Shown: in pieces, positions 3,783-41,371 of the stretch
How positions within the stretch are numbered: position 1 is the first letter of the stretch
Layout: every line of letters starts with the position of its first letter
Origin: Sulfoacidibacillus thermotolerans
GTDB lineage: Bacteria > Bacillota > Bacilli > Alicyclobacillales > SLC66
NCBI RefSeq assembly: GCF_003144315.1
Contig: NZ_MPDK01000003.1
Location: 62,001-126,000, forward strand
DNA length: 64,000 nt
Direction of reading: 5' to 3'
Notes under the pieces: generated by a model
Seen by the model: only the letters and a program-made list of their open reading frames with translations
Told to the model about the DNA's origin: nothing
Database searches by the model: none
Position numbers and translations under genes: made by a program

Positions 3783-4853
<1,071 letters not shown>

Positions 4854-31477: not shown

Positions 31478-32356
31478 ATGAGGATGTTAGGATTTTTAGG
31501 TCCCAGCGGGACGTATACTGAGCAAGCCGCCCATTTTTTTGCAGATAAACTAGGAGTTGAGAGATCGCGGATTCACCCTTTTTCTTCAATTTCACGGGTT
31601 TTTGATGCAGTGGAGAACAATGAGGTGCAGTACGCAGCTGTTCCAATTGAAAATTCCTTAGAAGGATCGGTGCTTGTGACACTCGATCGATTGGCTGCGT
31701 ATCCCCTGCGCATATTCGCAGAGGTCGCATTGCCGATTCGGCACACAATATTTGGATTGCCGGGTACAGATCCTCACGCTGTGCGACAAGTATTGTCGCA
31801 CCCACAAGCTCTTGCCCAATGTCGGCAAACGCTAATGGAACTGTTTCCAAATGCTGAACATGTAGATGTTGAGAGTACAGCTGCGGCGATTTTACATGTA
31901 GCAAAAGAACGCGATCATACGCTCGTGTGTGTTGGCAGCTTAAATGCAGGACGTGCACAAGCGCTTGAAGTGTTACGGGTAGATGCGCAAGATATCTCAG
32001 ATAACGTGACGCGATTCGTGCTACTTGGGCGGAGGGAACACGCTCCTTACTTTGTACAAGAGCAAAAAGCAGACACAACGAAAACATCTTTACTACTCCA
32101 ATTAGGTGATGATCATCCTGGCGCTTTGTACGCAGTATTAAAAGTGTTTGCACAGCGTCAATTAAACTTGTCGCGCTTAGAGTCACGTCCAACGAAGAGA
32201 GGACTAGGCAGCTACCAGTTTTATATTGATGTATTGGGAAACTCGAATGATCAAGAAGTTGTGCAAGCAATGGAAGAAATCTCTGCAATCGCGGGATTTT
32301 CTGTGCGTGATCTAGGAACCTATCCGTGTTTTTCAGTTTCTTCGCAAGAAATTTGA
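31478..32356 (+). CDS. pheA: Prephenate dehydratase
   Basis: 292 residues. The catalytic domain begins LGFLGPSGTYTEQAA and includes VPIENSLEGSV and the conserved Thr-Arg-Phe in DNVTRFVLLG. A C-terminal ACT domain (about 205-285) contains HPGALYAVLKVFAQRQLNLSRLESRP, which binds phenylalanine for feedback inhibition. It converts prephenate to phenylpyruvate in phenylalanine synthesis. The ATG follows GAGGAG at 31461-31466. Its stop codon is embedded in the -35 region of the small RNA promoter that follows. Confidence 0.95.
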   Translation: MRMLGFLGPSGTYTEQAAHFFADKLGVERSRIHPFSSISRVFDAVENNEVQYAAVPIENSLEGSVLVTLDRLAAYPLRIFAEVALPIRHTIFGLPGTDPHAVRQVLSHPQALAQCRQTLMELFPNAEHVDVESTAAAILHVAKERDHTLVCVGSLNAGRAQALEVLRVDAQDISDNVTRFVLLGRREHAPYFVQEQKADTTKTSLLLQLGDDHPGALYAVLKVFAQRQLNLSRLESRPTKRGLGSYQFYIDVLGNSNDQEVVQAMEEISAIAGFSVRDLGTYPCFSVSSQEI

Positions 32357-32381
32357 CAGATTTAGTCGAAAACCCTATAAT
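32353..32381 (+). promoter_or_regulatory. Perfect-consensus sigma-A promoter for a small RNA
   Basis: TTGACA (32353-32358) and TATAAT (32376-32381) are both exact consensus hexamers with the optimal 17-bp spacing. The -35 box overlaps the pheA stop codon. It is the best-matching promoter in the window and is aimed at a transcript of under 100 nt. Confidence 0.85.
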
Positions 32382-32387
32382 GACGTC

Positions 32388-32483
32388 ACAACTTATTTTA
32401 AACTGAAAAGAACTGCAAGGAGCGTTTTACCATGTGCCTTATCCCCCCCACGCACGATGGAAGCGGACTCTGCAGTTCTTTTT
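32388..32483 (+). ncRNA. Candidate small RNA: long hairpin with a C7 apical loop
   Basis: A predicted transcript of about 96 nt runs from the consensus promoter to an oligo-U end. It folds into one extended hairpin with these helices: 32406-32417 with 32471-32482 (12 bp), 32420-32422 with 32468-32470, 32423-32427 with 32461-32465, 32430-32433 with 32457-32460, and 32434-32437 with 32452-32455. That is 28 pairs with only small bulges. The 14-nt apical loop (32438-32451) contains CCCCCCC. The base of the stem with its U tail is also the terminator. A 17-codon frame with a GGAG site (ATG 32432 to TAG 32485) lies inside, but its start is buried in the helix. C-rich loops in Firmicute regulatory RNAs often pair with Shine-Dalgarno sequences; that role here is inference. 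Confidence 0.7.
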
Positions 32484-32616
32484 AGCGTGTATTTTCCATC
32501 ATACATATAGATTTGTAAGATTTTTATAGAAAATGCCCATATTTGTCGACTCCCCTGTCATTTTGCCTATGTCTGCATATATTGCTACAGATATCTGACC
32601 TAGGAGGTCGAAATGG

Positions 32617-33633
32617 GTGAAACTGTACACGGTACAAAAAGGCGATACTATGTGGAAAATTGCTCAACGCTTTGGAATTTCCACACTTGCTTTGATTAAT
32701 GCCAATCCACAAGTTTTTGATCCAAACTTGCTTCGTATCGGCGATCAACTCTATCTTCCATTGCCGCTTGATCCAAGTGATGGTCCTTACATTGCATCGG
32801 ATTTTGGTGGCTATGAAGTTCCTATGCCCACATGGCCCTATGTTGTAAAAAAGGGCGACACGATGTGGAAAATTGCTCAACAGGTTGGTCTTCCTGTGCA
32901 GTATCTTATCATTGCGAATCCGCAGATTGCTTATCCAGACCAAATTATCCCAGGTCAAATTGTGAATATTCCTGGTCGTGCGCCCGATCAATTTGATATG
33001 CAACCTCCAGGTCAGATGCCAACGCCAGCACCGCATGCAGCACCGCATGCAGCACCGCCAGGTCAGATGCCAACACCAGCACCGCATGCAGCACCGCCAG
33101 GTCAGATGCCAACGCCAACACCGCATGCAGTGCCCCTCGCTCCACATTCTGCACCGATGAAGCCAGCAGTACCATTAGAACCGAACCAACCTCCTGCTGG
33201 AGCATCGAATGTAAAATCTTTAAAGCCGTCGCCTCAGGGGTTTAGTGAGTCAAAAGCAGATCGCGAGTACTCATCAAAACAGGCGAAAATGCAAAATGAC
33301 GGAGTAAAACCACCGAAAATGAAAGTGACACCGCCTGCTGTAGCGAAGCTCTTTGTTGAAGAAGCAGGCGAAGTTATAGAAGAAAAATCATTTTATGAGA
33401 ATCGACCACTTGAAGACATGATCATTTGTGAAGATCCGAGTTTGCCATCTAATCTGATGATCGTCGGCAAAGGTCCAGAAATTCCTGTAACCAAGGAGAC
33501 AATTGCGATGTCGCCGTTTGCTCCACTGAGTATTTATCAAGAGTTGCAAGTGAAAAAGGACGTAAAATTGCGGGAGAGTTCATCACTTTGGGAAATGGAA
33601 TCTTCCTGGTTTCGTGAATCTGCATCACATTAA
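32617..33633 (+). CDS. safA: SafA-like spore coat assembly protein with two LysM domains
   Basis: 338 residues from GTG 32617, with AGGAGGTC at 32602-32609. Two LysM domains lie at about 2-48 (YTVQKGDTMWKIAQRFG) and 75-121 (YVVKKGDTMWKIAQQVG). A Pro/His/Ala/Gln-rich repeat region (about 130-175) follows, then a low-complexity polar C-terminal part. SafA proteins localise to the spore cortex-coat interface and organise inner coat proteins. There is no signal peptide, as expected for mother-cell expression. The C-terminal part is not clearly conserved. Confidence 0.8.
   Translation: MKLYTVQKGDTMWKIAQRFGISTLALINANPQVFDPNLLRIGDQLYLPLPLDPSDGPYIASDFGGYEVPMPTWPYVVKKGDTMWKIAQQVGLPVQYLIIANPQIAYPDQIIPGQIVNIPGRAPDQFDMQPPGQMPTPAPHAAPHAAPPGQMPTPAPHAAPPGQMPTPTPHAVPLAPHSAPMKPAVPLEPNQPPAGASNVKSLKPSPQGFSESKADREYSSKQAKMQNDGVKPPKMKVTPPAVAKLFVEEAGEVIEEKSFYENRPLEDMIICEDPSLPSNLMIVGKGPEIPVTKETIAMSPFAPLSIYQELQVKKDVKLRESSSLWEMESSWFRESASH
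33007..33135 (+). repeat. Three 39-bp tandem repeats inside safA
   Basis: Copies at 33007-33045, 33058-33096 and 33097-33135 encode the 13-residue unit PGQMPTPAPHAAP with few changes. An extra CATGCAGCACCG partial unit sits at 33046-33057. All repeats stay in frame, so copy-number changes would alter the linker length without frameshift. Confidence 0.9.
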
Positions 33634-39446: not shown

Positions 39447-40208
39447 GTGGCGCAGCCGGTGGTTCGTCTCTCTTTGCGACGAAAGCAAGTCGCTGTGCCA
39501 GAAACGCTTAACGAACTTGTTGCGCTTGCATTAGATGGACAAAAGGATGCGCGTGAACAACTTTTGCAACATTGTTTACCTTTTGTTGAGCGCGTTGCGT
39601 CAGCGACGTGCGGACGGGGGATTGCGCGCACGGATGAAGAATTTCAGATTGCGTTACTCGCGTTAAACGAAGCGATTGACGCGTATGTGACGAGGCGAGG
39701 GGCTTTTTTGCACTTTGCTGAAACAGTGATACGTCGCCGCCTGATCGATTCATTTCGCGCCAATTCGCGCAAGCGCGAACTTCCCTTTACAGCATTTGAC
39801 GAAACAGACGAAGACGGAAATATACAAAATACCATTGAAGTTGCATCTGCACTGTCTGCTTATCAGCGGGAGATGGAAGTGGCCAGACGAGCAGAGGAAA
39901 TCACAAGATATACGGAAGAGTTGAAGCAGTATGGCATCGATTTTTTCGATCTCATTCATGCGAGTCCAAAGCATGTGGACGCAAGGGAACATGCTCTTTT
40001 TGCAGCGAGACAAGTCGTGTGTGACGAAGACCTGCGCGCGCGCTTTGTAAAGACGAAAGCTTTACCTCTAAAACAACTTGCACCACGAGTTGCTGTGAGT
40101 CGAAAGACGCTTGAGCGGCAACGGGATTATATCGTGGCTGTCGTCGTTTTGTTGCTAGGGGATTATGAGCTGTTGCAGTCATTTGTGACGGGGGGGAATC
40201 CGCGATGA
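39447..40208 (+). CDS. sigI: RNA polymerase sigma factor SigI
   Basis: 253 residues from GTG 39447, with AAGGT six nucleotides upstream. The sigma-70 region 2 is visible as EEFQIALLALNEAIDAYVTRRGAFLHFAETVIRRRLIDSF. The C-terminal helix-turn-helix-like VSRKTLERQRDYIVAVVVLL is the conserved SigI end. SigI factors respond to heat or cell-envelope and polysaccharide signals and are held by membrane anti-sigma factor RsgI, encoded next with a 4-bp overlap. Location between ruvB and queA differs from Bacillus. Confidence 0.92.
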   Translation: MAQPVVRLSLRRKQVAVPETLNELVALALDGQKDAREQLLQHCLPFVERVASATCGRGIARTDEEFQIALLALNEAIDAYVTRRGAFLHFAETVIRRRLIDSFRANSRKRELPFTAFDETDEDGNIQNTIEVASALSAYQREMEVARRAEEITRYTEELKQYGIDFFDLIHASPKHVDAREHALFAARQVVCDEDLRARFVKTKALPLKQLAPRVAVSRKTLERQRDYIVAVVVLLLGDYELLQSFVTGGNPR

Positions 40209-41371
40209 GGCGAAGCGGGATTGTCATAGGGTTTCCTGACGAGCGAACAGCTGTTATCCTTACACAGGAATTCACGTTTGTGCGCGTACTGCGTGAAGAG
40301 CATATGAAAATTGGCCAAGAGATTGCGCAAGGTGATCTTGTTGTGCCACAAGCCAGCATTTTGCGGCGTCCATTTCTCTCGCGCTGGCTAAATCGGCGAA
40401 GCGTGGCAGGGATCGTTGTTGCTTCCATGGTCACAGTAACGATGCTTGTATTTTCGCAGTGGGATCTAGCGAAGGCAGCCCCATACATTTATCTATCGCT
40501 CGATGTGAATCCGAGTGTCGTGTTTACAGTGGATCGCAGCGACCGCATTCTTGCTGTAAAACCACTTGACGCAGCGGGGCGTAAGGTTCTTTACCATGTA
40601 CAAATGACGGGTGACTTATTGTCGAGTGCACTGTGTGATTATATGCATTCTATGGTTCAGTTTGGCTATGTCAAGCGGCAAACAAATATAGTGATGGTTG
40701 TTGCACCTGGACAGACGGCTGCACAAGCGAAACTGTCTACTACGATGCAGAGTTTGCGTCAAGTGATTATCAAAGCGCTGGGGAAAGGGGAAGTTACCTT
40801 CACTTCCTTTGTTGTAACGAAAACCTTCTTTTCTAGTGCGCTGCAAGATCAGGTATCTCCAGGTAGACTGGCATTATATGTAGAGGCTAAGCGAAGTGGT
40901 GATTTTGTGTCTTGGCAGGATCTTTTAAATGGGCATATGGCACGGGCGGTGGGCGGAACAGTGAAACTGCATCAATTGCTTCACATCGCTGAACGTGATC
41001 CGACTCTGCCGCATGCTCTTTTAGAAGTTACAAAGCTTCAGAGCAAGCGAGGTGTACATGAGAACAATGGGCGAGCAAACGGGAAAGAAAACGCGCCAGC
41101 ACCACTTTTGCCCCCTGATTTGCCGCCGTTACCCAATCAACTGTTGGCATTCATACAGCAGCCGATGCATGCACTAGTTCCCTCGCGAAAATGGTCAATA
41201 TCTATACAAAAAAGGCGCTTGCCGTCATTCCCGCCCTCCACATCGATTCATTCTTCCAGTCTCCCAGAAACGGCTCATGTGAGGAGCGCGCGGGCGCCCT
41301 TCTCCGTGTTGCAAGGGGCTTCACCGATTGGCAGAGCGATTTTGCATAATGCCCCGATTCAGATCCGCTGA
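40205..41371 (+). CDS. rsgI: Anti-sigma-I factor RsgI
   Basis: 388 residues. An N-terminal cytoplasmic RsgI domain (1-55, RRSGIVIGFPDERTAVILT) binds SigI. A transmembrane helix (about 68-86, VAGIVVASMVTVTMLVFSQW) follows, then a periplasmic-side domain with YLSLDVNPSVVFTVD and a disordered Pro-rich tail. The Asn-Pro in DVNPS matches the site of self-cleavage described for RsgI proteins. No carbohydrate-binding module is recognisable at the C-terminus, so the sensed signal is unclear. The ribosome site is a G7 run at 40190-40196. Confidence 0.88.
   Translation: MRRSGIVIGFPDERTAVILTQEFTFVRVLREEHMKIGQEIAQGDLVVPQASILRRPFLSRWLNRRSVAGIVVASMVTVTMLVFSQWDLAKAAPYIYLSLDVNPSVVFTVDRSDRILAVKPLDAAGRKVLYHVQMTGDLLSSALCDYMHSMVQFGYVKRQTNIVMVVAPGQTAAQAKLSTTMQSLRQVIIKALGKGEVTFTSFVVTKTFFSSALQDQVSPGRLALYVEAKRSGDFVSWQDLLNGHMARAVGGTVKLHQLLHIAERDPTLPHALLEVTKLQSKRGVHENNGRANGKENAPAPLLPPDLPPLPNQLLAFIQQPMHALVPSRKWSISIQKRRLPSFPPSTSIHSSSLPETAHVRSARAPFSVLQGASPIGRAILHNAPIQIR

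Follow-up and report, generated by a model that had tools for sequence, protein, structure and literature searches.

A stand-alone small RNA (sRNA) gene lies between pheA and safA in Sulfoacidibacillus thermotolerans and, judged by its sequence and its homologues, is almost certainly real, undescribed and restricted to a single bacterial family. The locus is part of a window of 64,000 nt (GCF_003144315.1, NZ_MPDK01000003.1, forward strand, 62,001-126,000; the same genome is G000 in the comparisons), to whose numbering the coordinates refer (Table 1). As established computationally, the gene is present in single copy, has its own promoter and its own Rho-independent terminator (both present by sequence), and specifies a covarying hairpin structure with a conserved C-rich loop. 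From these features we infer that it is transcribed.

Promoter, hairpin and terminator

The sRNA promoter (TTGACA-17-TATAAT) matches at 12/12 positions, as does no other site in the window; 1.66 Mb of G000 contain eight such matches in all, the genome-scale scans of this genome having taken in about 1.66 Mb of its 2.87 Mb, sampled as stretches. The pheA TGA stop (32354-32356) sits within the -35 hexamer. The first-pass annotation had described both a perfect promoter, the best in the window, and its overlap with the pheA stop, and both descriptions are confirmed. Among 15 homologues the -35 is invariant (100% in 15/15), the -10 has a mean identity of 93% and the spacer one of 83%, with spacer columns 11-20 mostly 87-100% identical and a near-palindromic, almost invariant spacer consensus, TTTmGTCGAAA. 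Because a perfect promoter is here combined with a near-invariant spacer, the promoter is probably under the control of a regulator bound at the spacer, whether a repressor or an activator, and its earlier description as constitutive is doubtful, the spacer being conserved across genera like an operator. The spacer also resembles a Spo0A box (TGTCGAA in G005, AGTCGAA or CGTCGAA elsewhere), a likeness that is only a lead, and no Fur box was recognised on inspection of the conserved promoter by eye. Sites like TTTAGTCGAAA are limited in the window to three near-matches, not above chance, and a regulon search with the operator over 1.66 Mb of G000 and 0.8 Mb of G001 returned few sites, without pattern, and no regulon. 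Ahead of a different gene, an Oscillospiraceae MAG carries a perfect TTGACA-N17-TATAAT whose spacer contains TCGTCGAA (locus positions 4250-4400); as the hairpin is absent there, this match is rejected as an sRNA homologue, and its spacer motif may reflect either chance or a shared regulator motif.

The predicted transcript (approximately 32388-32486, about 95 nt) folds into a single hairpin (32403-32485) with a stability of -35.7 kcal/mol and a z of -5.9, equalled by 0 of 200 shuffles. Its stem comprises 30 pairs by MFE, or 28 with the last U pairs removed, and carries several small internal loops and bulges, so that the 28-bp, nearly uninterrupted hairpin of the initial description stands in its size and in its 14-nt C7 loop and falls in its lack of interruptions. 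The oligo-U tract (32479-32483) closes the stem, and the hairpin therefore doubles as the terminator, a role that had been claimed for the tract and is borne out by sequence and fold. The 3' end TTCTYTTT is common to all homologues, and the 5' tail is moderately conserved (73%).

Table 1. Features of the sRNA locus and its surroundings, by position in the window
Feature	Position	Strand	Basis or remark
Sigma-A promoter	32353-32381	+	TTGACA 32353-32358, 17-nt spacer, TATAAT 32376-32381
Spacer element TTTAGTCGAAA	32361-32371	+	Close to a palindrome; hardly varies between genera; likely operator
Probable start of the transcript, with a short 5' tail, unpaired and rich in A/U	32388-32402	+	Start placed about 7 nt past the -10; unpaired in the fold
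Hairpin 5' arm	32403-32437	+	Fold; covariation in outer and apical helices
Segment antisense to hemH RBS and start codon	32424-32448	+	24/25 positions pair, one G-U; G000 only
Apical loop CUUAUCCCCCCCAC, 14 nt	32438-32451	+	C7 at 32443-32449; proposed seed for G-rich Shine-Dalgarno
Hairpin 3' arm, acting as terminator, with terminal oligo-U at 32479-32483	32452-32485	+	Sequence, fold
Sigma-E-like safA promoter GTCATTTT ... GCATATATTGCT	32557-32586	+	Sequence; sigma-E assignment by eye

Conservation, covariation and novelty

A DNA search of 61 genomes, 18 of them from the same family, recovers the element in 13 of these; a weak match outside the family (G053) is a 23-nt fragment. Covariance model R1, built on promoter and hairpin and searched against the 18 family genomes and 41 genomes of the sister family, finds the sRNA in 15 of the former, in single copy each, and in none of the latter; the three family genomes without a match are 73-88% complete. 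Among 399 genomes of the class, drawn family members included, there is no match beyond those members and one chance terminator (G383), a plain terminator in which the C loop is absent. Model R2, built on the hairpin alone, likewise yields no copy outside the family and loses the most diverged copy (G016). The sRNA spans at least 7 genera, and the family they belong to is known chiefly through metagenome-assembled genomes. Those database records of homologues that bear names are Bacillota MAGs, and the family is probably that of Acidibacillus/Sulfoacidibacillus.

Folded alone, each of the 15 homologues forms one hairpin, with 23-29 pairs and z between -4.1 and -8.6. The apical loop is C-rich in all of them and contains an invariant CCCAC; its length (9 to 16 nt) and its 5' half vary. 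A single-stranded C-run is conserved among them, as expected of sRNAs that pair with Shine-Dalgarno (SD) sites through a C-rich loop. In the structural alignment of the 15 (A5), 94.4% of cells are paired versus 85.5% in shuffles, with double changes in 28 cells and changes on both sides in 8 pairs, and the covariation score is reached by 0 of 500 shuffles. A5 was fitted to the structure, which biases it in favour of pairing; slides of the partner by 1-3 columns still drop the paired fraction to 34-65%. Mid-stem columns are about 42% identical, whereas the apical helix reaches 85%, and a conserved loop and promoter with a diverged mid-stem is, on this alignment, the signature of a functional RNA. 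The sRNA put forward in the first-pass annotation, with alignment and covariation as the check, is accordingly upheld: 15 of the 18 family genomes conserve it, and its stems covary.

Rfam gives no match to the sRNA at gathering level or up to E 5, the unmatched models including those of 6C RNA and of RsaE/RoxS; we take RsaE to be present in the Rfam copy used. The homologues match no family either, the one match to mir-942 (E 0.07, in one homologue) lying far under the gathering score and being ascribed to chance. The RNA, which had earlier not been recognised as a named one, thus matches no Rfam family even at E<=5, no described sRNA in this Firmicute family turned up in our searches, and the RNA is a new, family-restricted sRNA within a known functional kind (C-rich loop on SD sites). 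The only gathering-level Rfam match in the window is a T-box leader (RF00230, 19147-19388, 107.5 bits).

Gene neighbourhood, targets and alternative readings

The sRNA adjoins the 3' end of a tyrS-yunB-pheA block, and safA follows wherever the contig reaches. Most genomes show the order yunB-pheA-RNA-safA; in G004 and G005 it is yunB-RNA-safA, and in G009 the tyrS-RNA arrangement lies at a contig end with only tyrS seen upstream. Because the RNA persists where pheA is missing (G004, G005, G009), pheA is incidental, and the link of the sRNA to this gene is unsupported. The pheA gene itself (31478-32356) has undergone gain, loss or relocation in the family, being absent beside the sRNA in G004 and G005. 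Downstream, the proline-rich linker of SafA (33026-33130) contains in-frame tandem repeats of 12 and 39 bp.

In three rival readings there is no stand-alone regulatory RNA. Were the locus a safA leader or attenuator, the promoter would drive safA and the hairpin would be a conditional terminator, and the location of safA directly downstream on the same strand at every locus with a long enough contig, as the constant neighbour where pheA is missing, is what this predicts. We nonetheless regard it as quite improbable, since in each genome the hairpin makes a strong terminator, the A/U tail of 15 nt shows no antiterminator that could compete with it, and safA is equipped with a separate, conserved sigma-E-like promoter, whose elements recur in relatives, so that it needs no read-through from the sRNA. 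That the hairpin is a mere bidirectional terminator of the upstream operon, its promoter match and C loop accidental, would account for a hairpin ending in oligo-U directly after pheA or yunB; it is very improbable, because a plain terminator gives no reason to expect an unchanging -35 across 15 genomes, 83% conservation of the spacer or a loop core without variation, and the RNA is kept although the upstream gene changes. Scarcely credible, finally, is a small mRNA encoding a 17-residue peptide (AGGAG followed by ATG TGC CTT ATC CCC ... TAG): the window copy has good SD spacing and a frame that stays open until a stop within the U tract, but the frame is shifted in G001 and G002 and a matching ATG frame is absent from other genera. 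The small ORF from ATG 32432 is thus rejected as a conserved one.

The reading we favour, and consider probable, is that of a stand-alone trans-acting sRNA whose C-rich loop would block G-rich SD sites. A strong sigma-A promoter, probably repressor- or activator-controlled, would yield a single hairpin RNA of about 95 nt, the hairpin serving as both body and terminator of the sRNA. The C-rich apical loop would act as an anti-SD seed on G-rich ribosome-binding sites (RBSs), at the best targets pairing may open further into the upper stem of the hairpin, and the resulting sRNA-mRNA pairing would block translation initiation. We infer the SD pairing, the repression and the spacer-bound control factor alike from the analysis.

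The strongest antisense match to the sRNA in G000 (1.66 Mb sampled), first of 1655 predicted start regions, is at the RBS of hemH, whose product is ferrochelatase (CGGGGGGATAAGTCACATGG at G000:C59:129530-129554; 25 nt, including one G-U and a single mismatch). When the sRNA is shuffled, 0 of 300 versions produce a BLAST match as good, whether the search covers start regions or the sampled 1.66 Mb, and the duplex, at -48.3, is undercut by 0 of 120 shuffled seeds (closest, -48.1). Neither G001 nor G002 has this complementarity, nor do the six other sRNA-bearing family genomes whose hemH start was compared, and G001 and G002 contain no extended antisense site elsewhere. With the match confined to G000 even within the genus, hemH is rejected as a family-wide target and, by this comparison, is not the reason for the conservation of the sRNA; as a species-level target it is a tentative candidate.

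Over 398 G000-G001 orthologue pairs no shared target is significant. The rsgI gene is among the best pairs and fails as a conserved target, with an ordinary SD in G002 and G008; in the sigI-rsgI pair of the window (40170-40210) a G7 tract (gacgggggggaatccgcgATG) precedes the rsgI start and is the best loop complement shared by G000 and G001. In 7 family genomes, starts preceded by GGGGGGA outnumber the reversed control by a factor of about 2-4, so that possible pairing partners are many. Since G-rich SD sites are common anyway, loop-SD complementarity by itself is weak evidence. For the proposed pairing of the C loop with SD sites the outcome is accordingly divided: it is plausible by precedent (B11, IsrR, RoxS), and no conserved target was found for it.

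The lack of a conserved mRNA target, together with a loop and closing helix far better conserved than any target site, is also what would be expected if the C-rich loop acted on a protein, or if the RNA were a sponge for another RNA, in place of mRNA pairing. This we consider clearly unlikely, as the loop length of 9-16 nt and its variable 5' half would be unusual for a protein site and B11, IsrR and RoxS, the described C-loop RNAs considered here, pair with G-rich SD sites (PMC10470900, PMC9410917, PMC4409812). An extended form of the favoured anti-SD reading, in which a family-specific global RNA (seed, body and terminator in one), governed by a spacer-bound factor that is possibly a sporulation or iron/haem regulator, would turn off haem synthesis at ferrochelatase in this species, is conceivable if unlikely.

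Comparison with known C-rich-loop RNAs

Two C-loop hairpins as in 6C are not found, a single hairpin being present in 15 of 15 homologues, and in place of several separate C-rich regions as in RsaE/RoxS there is one C-run, in the apical loop. With 6C/B11 of Actinobacteria the new sRNA shares a compact stable form and a C-rich hairpin loop; the B11 loops pair with RBS G-tracts, as at the G6 tract of the eccB4 RBS, where compensatory mutations were tested (PMC10470900). Unlike the new sRNA, in which one hairpin is also the terminator and which has no Rfam match, 6C/B11 carries two C-rich loops, and it has been described as Actinobacteria-specific. IsrR of staphylococci pairs with SD sequences through C-rich single-stranded regions, one of which is a run of 4-7 C within a loop, and has genus-level conservation and a regulated promoter (PMC9410917), but differs in its three stem-loops with a separate terminator, its three C-rich regions and its Fur control, against one hairpin here. 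An iron or haem role would be in keeping with the hemH match. RsaE/RoxS, also a Firmicute sRNA, pairs C-rich regions with SD sequences and has conserved promoter upstream elements (PMC4409812), whereas its C-rich regions are several, its control is by ResD near -65, and the new sRNA has no Rfam match. FsrA of Bacillus subtilis likewise binds the SD through a C-rich motif (PMC9410917), but is unrelated in sequence and is a Fur-controlled iron-sparing RNA acting with FbpA/B/C (PMC9410917, in part).

Although trans-acting sRNAs are usually poorly conserved (PMC9410917), the new one is conserved over at least 7 genera, and it is as simple as such RNAs get. It supplies a covariance model, a mutable seed and a candidate target in hemH, and with these a test of how C-loop RNAs select from many G-rich RBSs. 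Its occurrence suggests that the C-loop solution of Actinobacteria, Bacillus and Staphylococcus has recurred independently.
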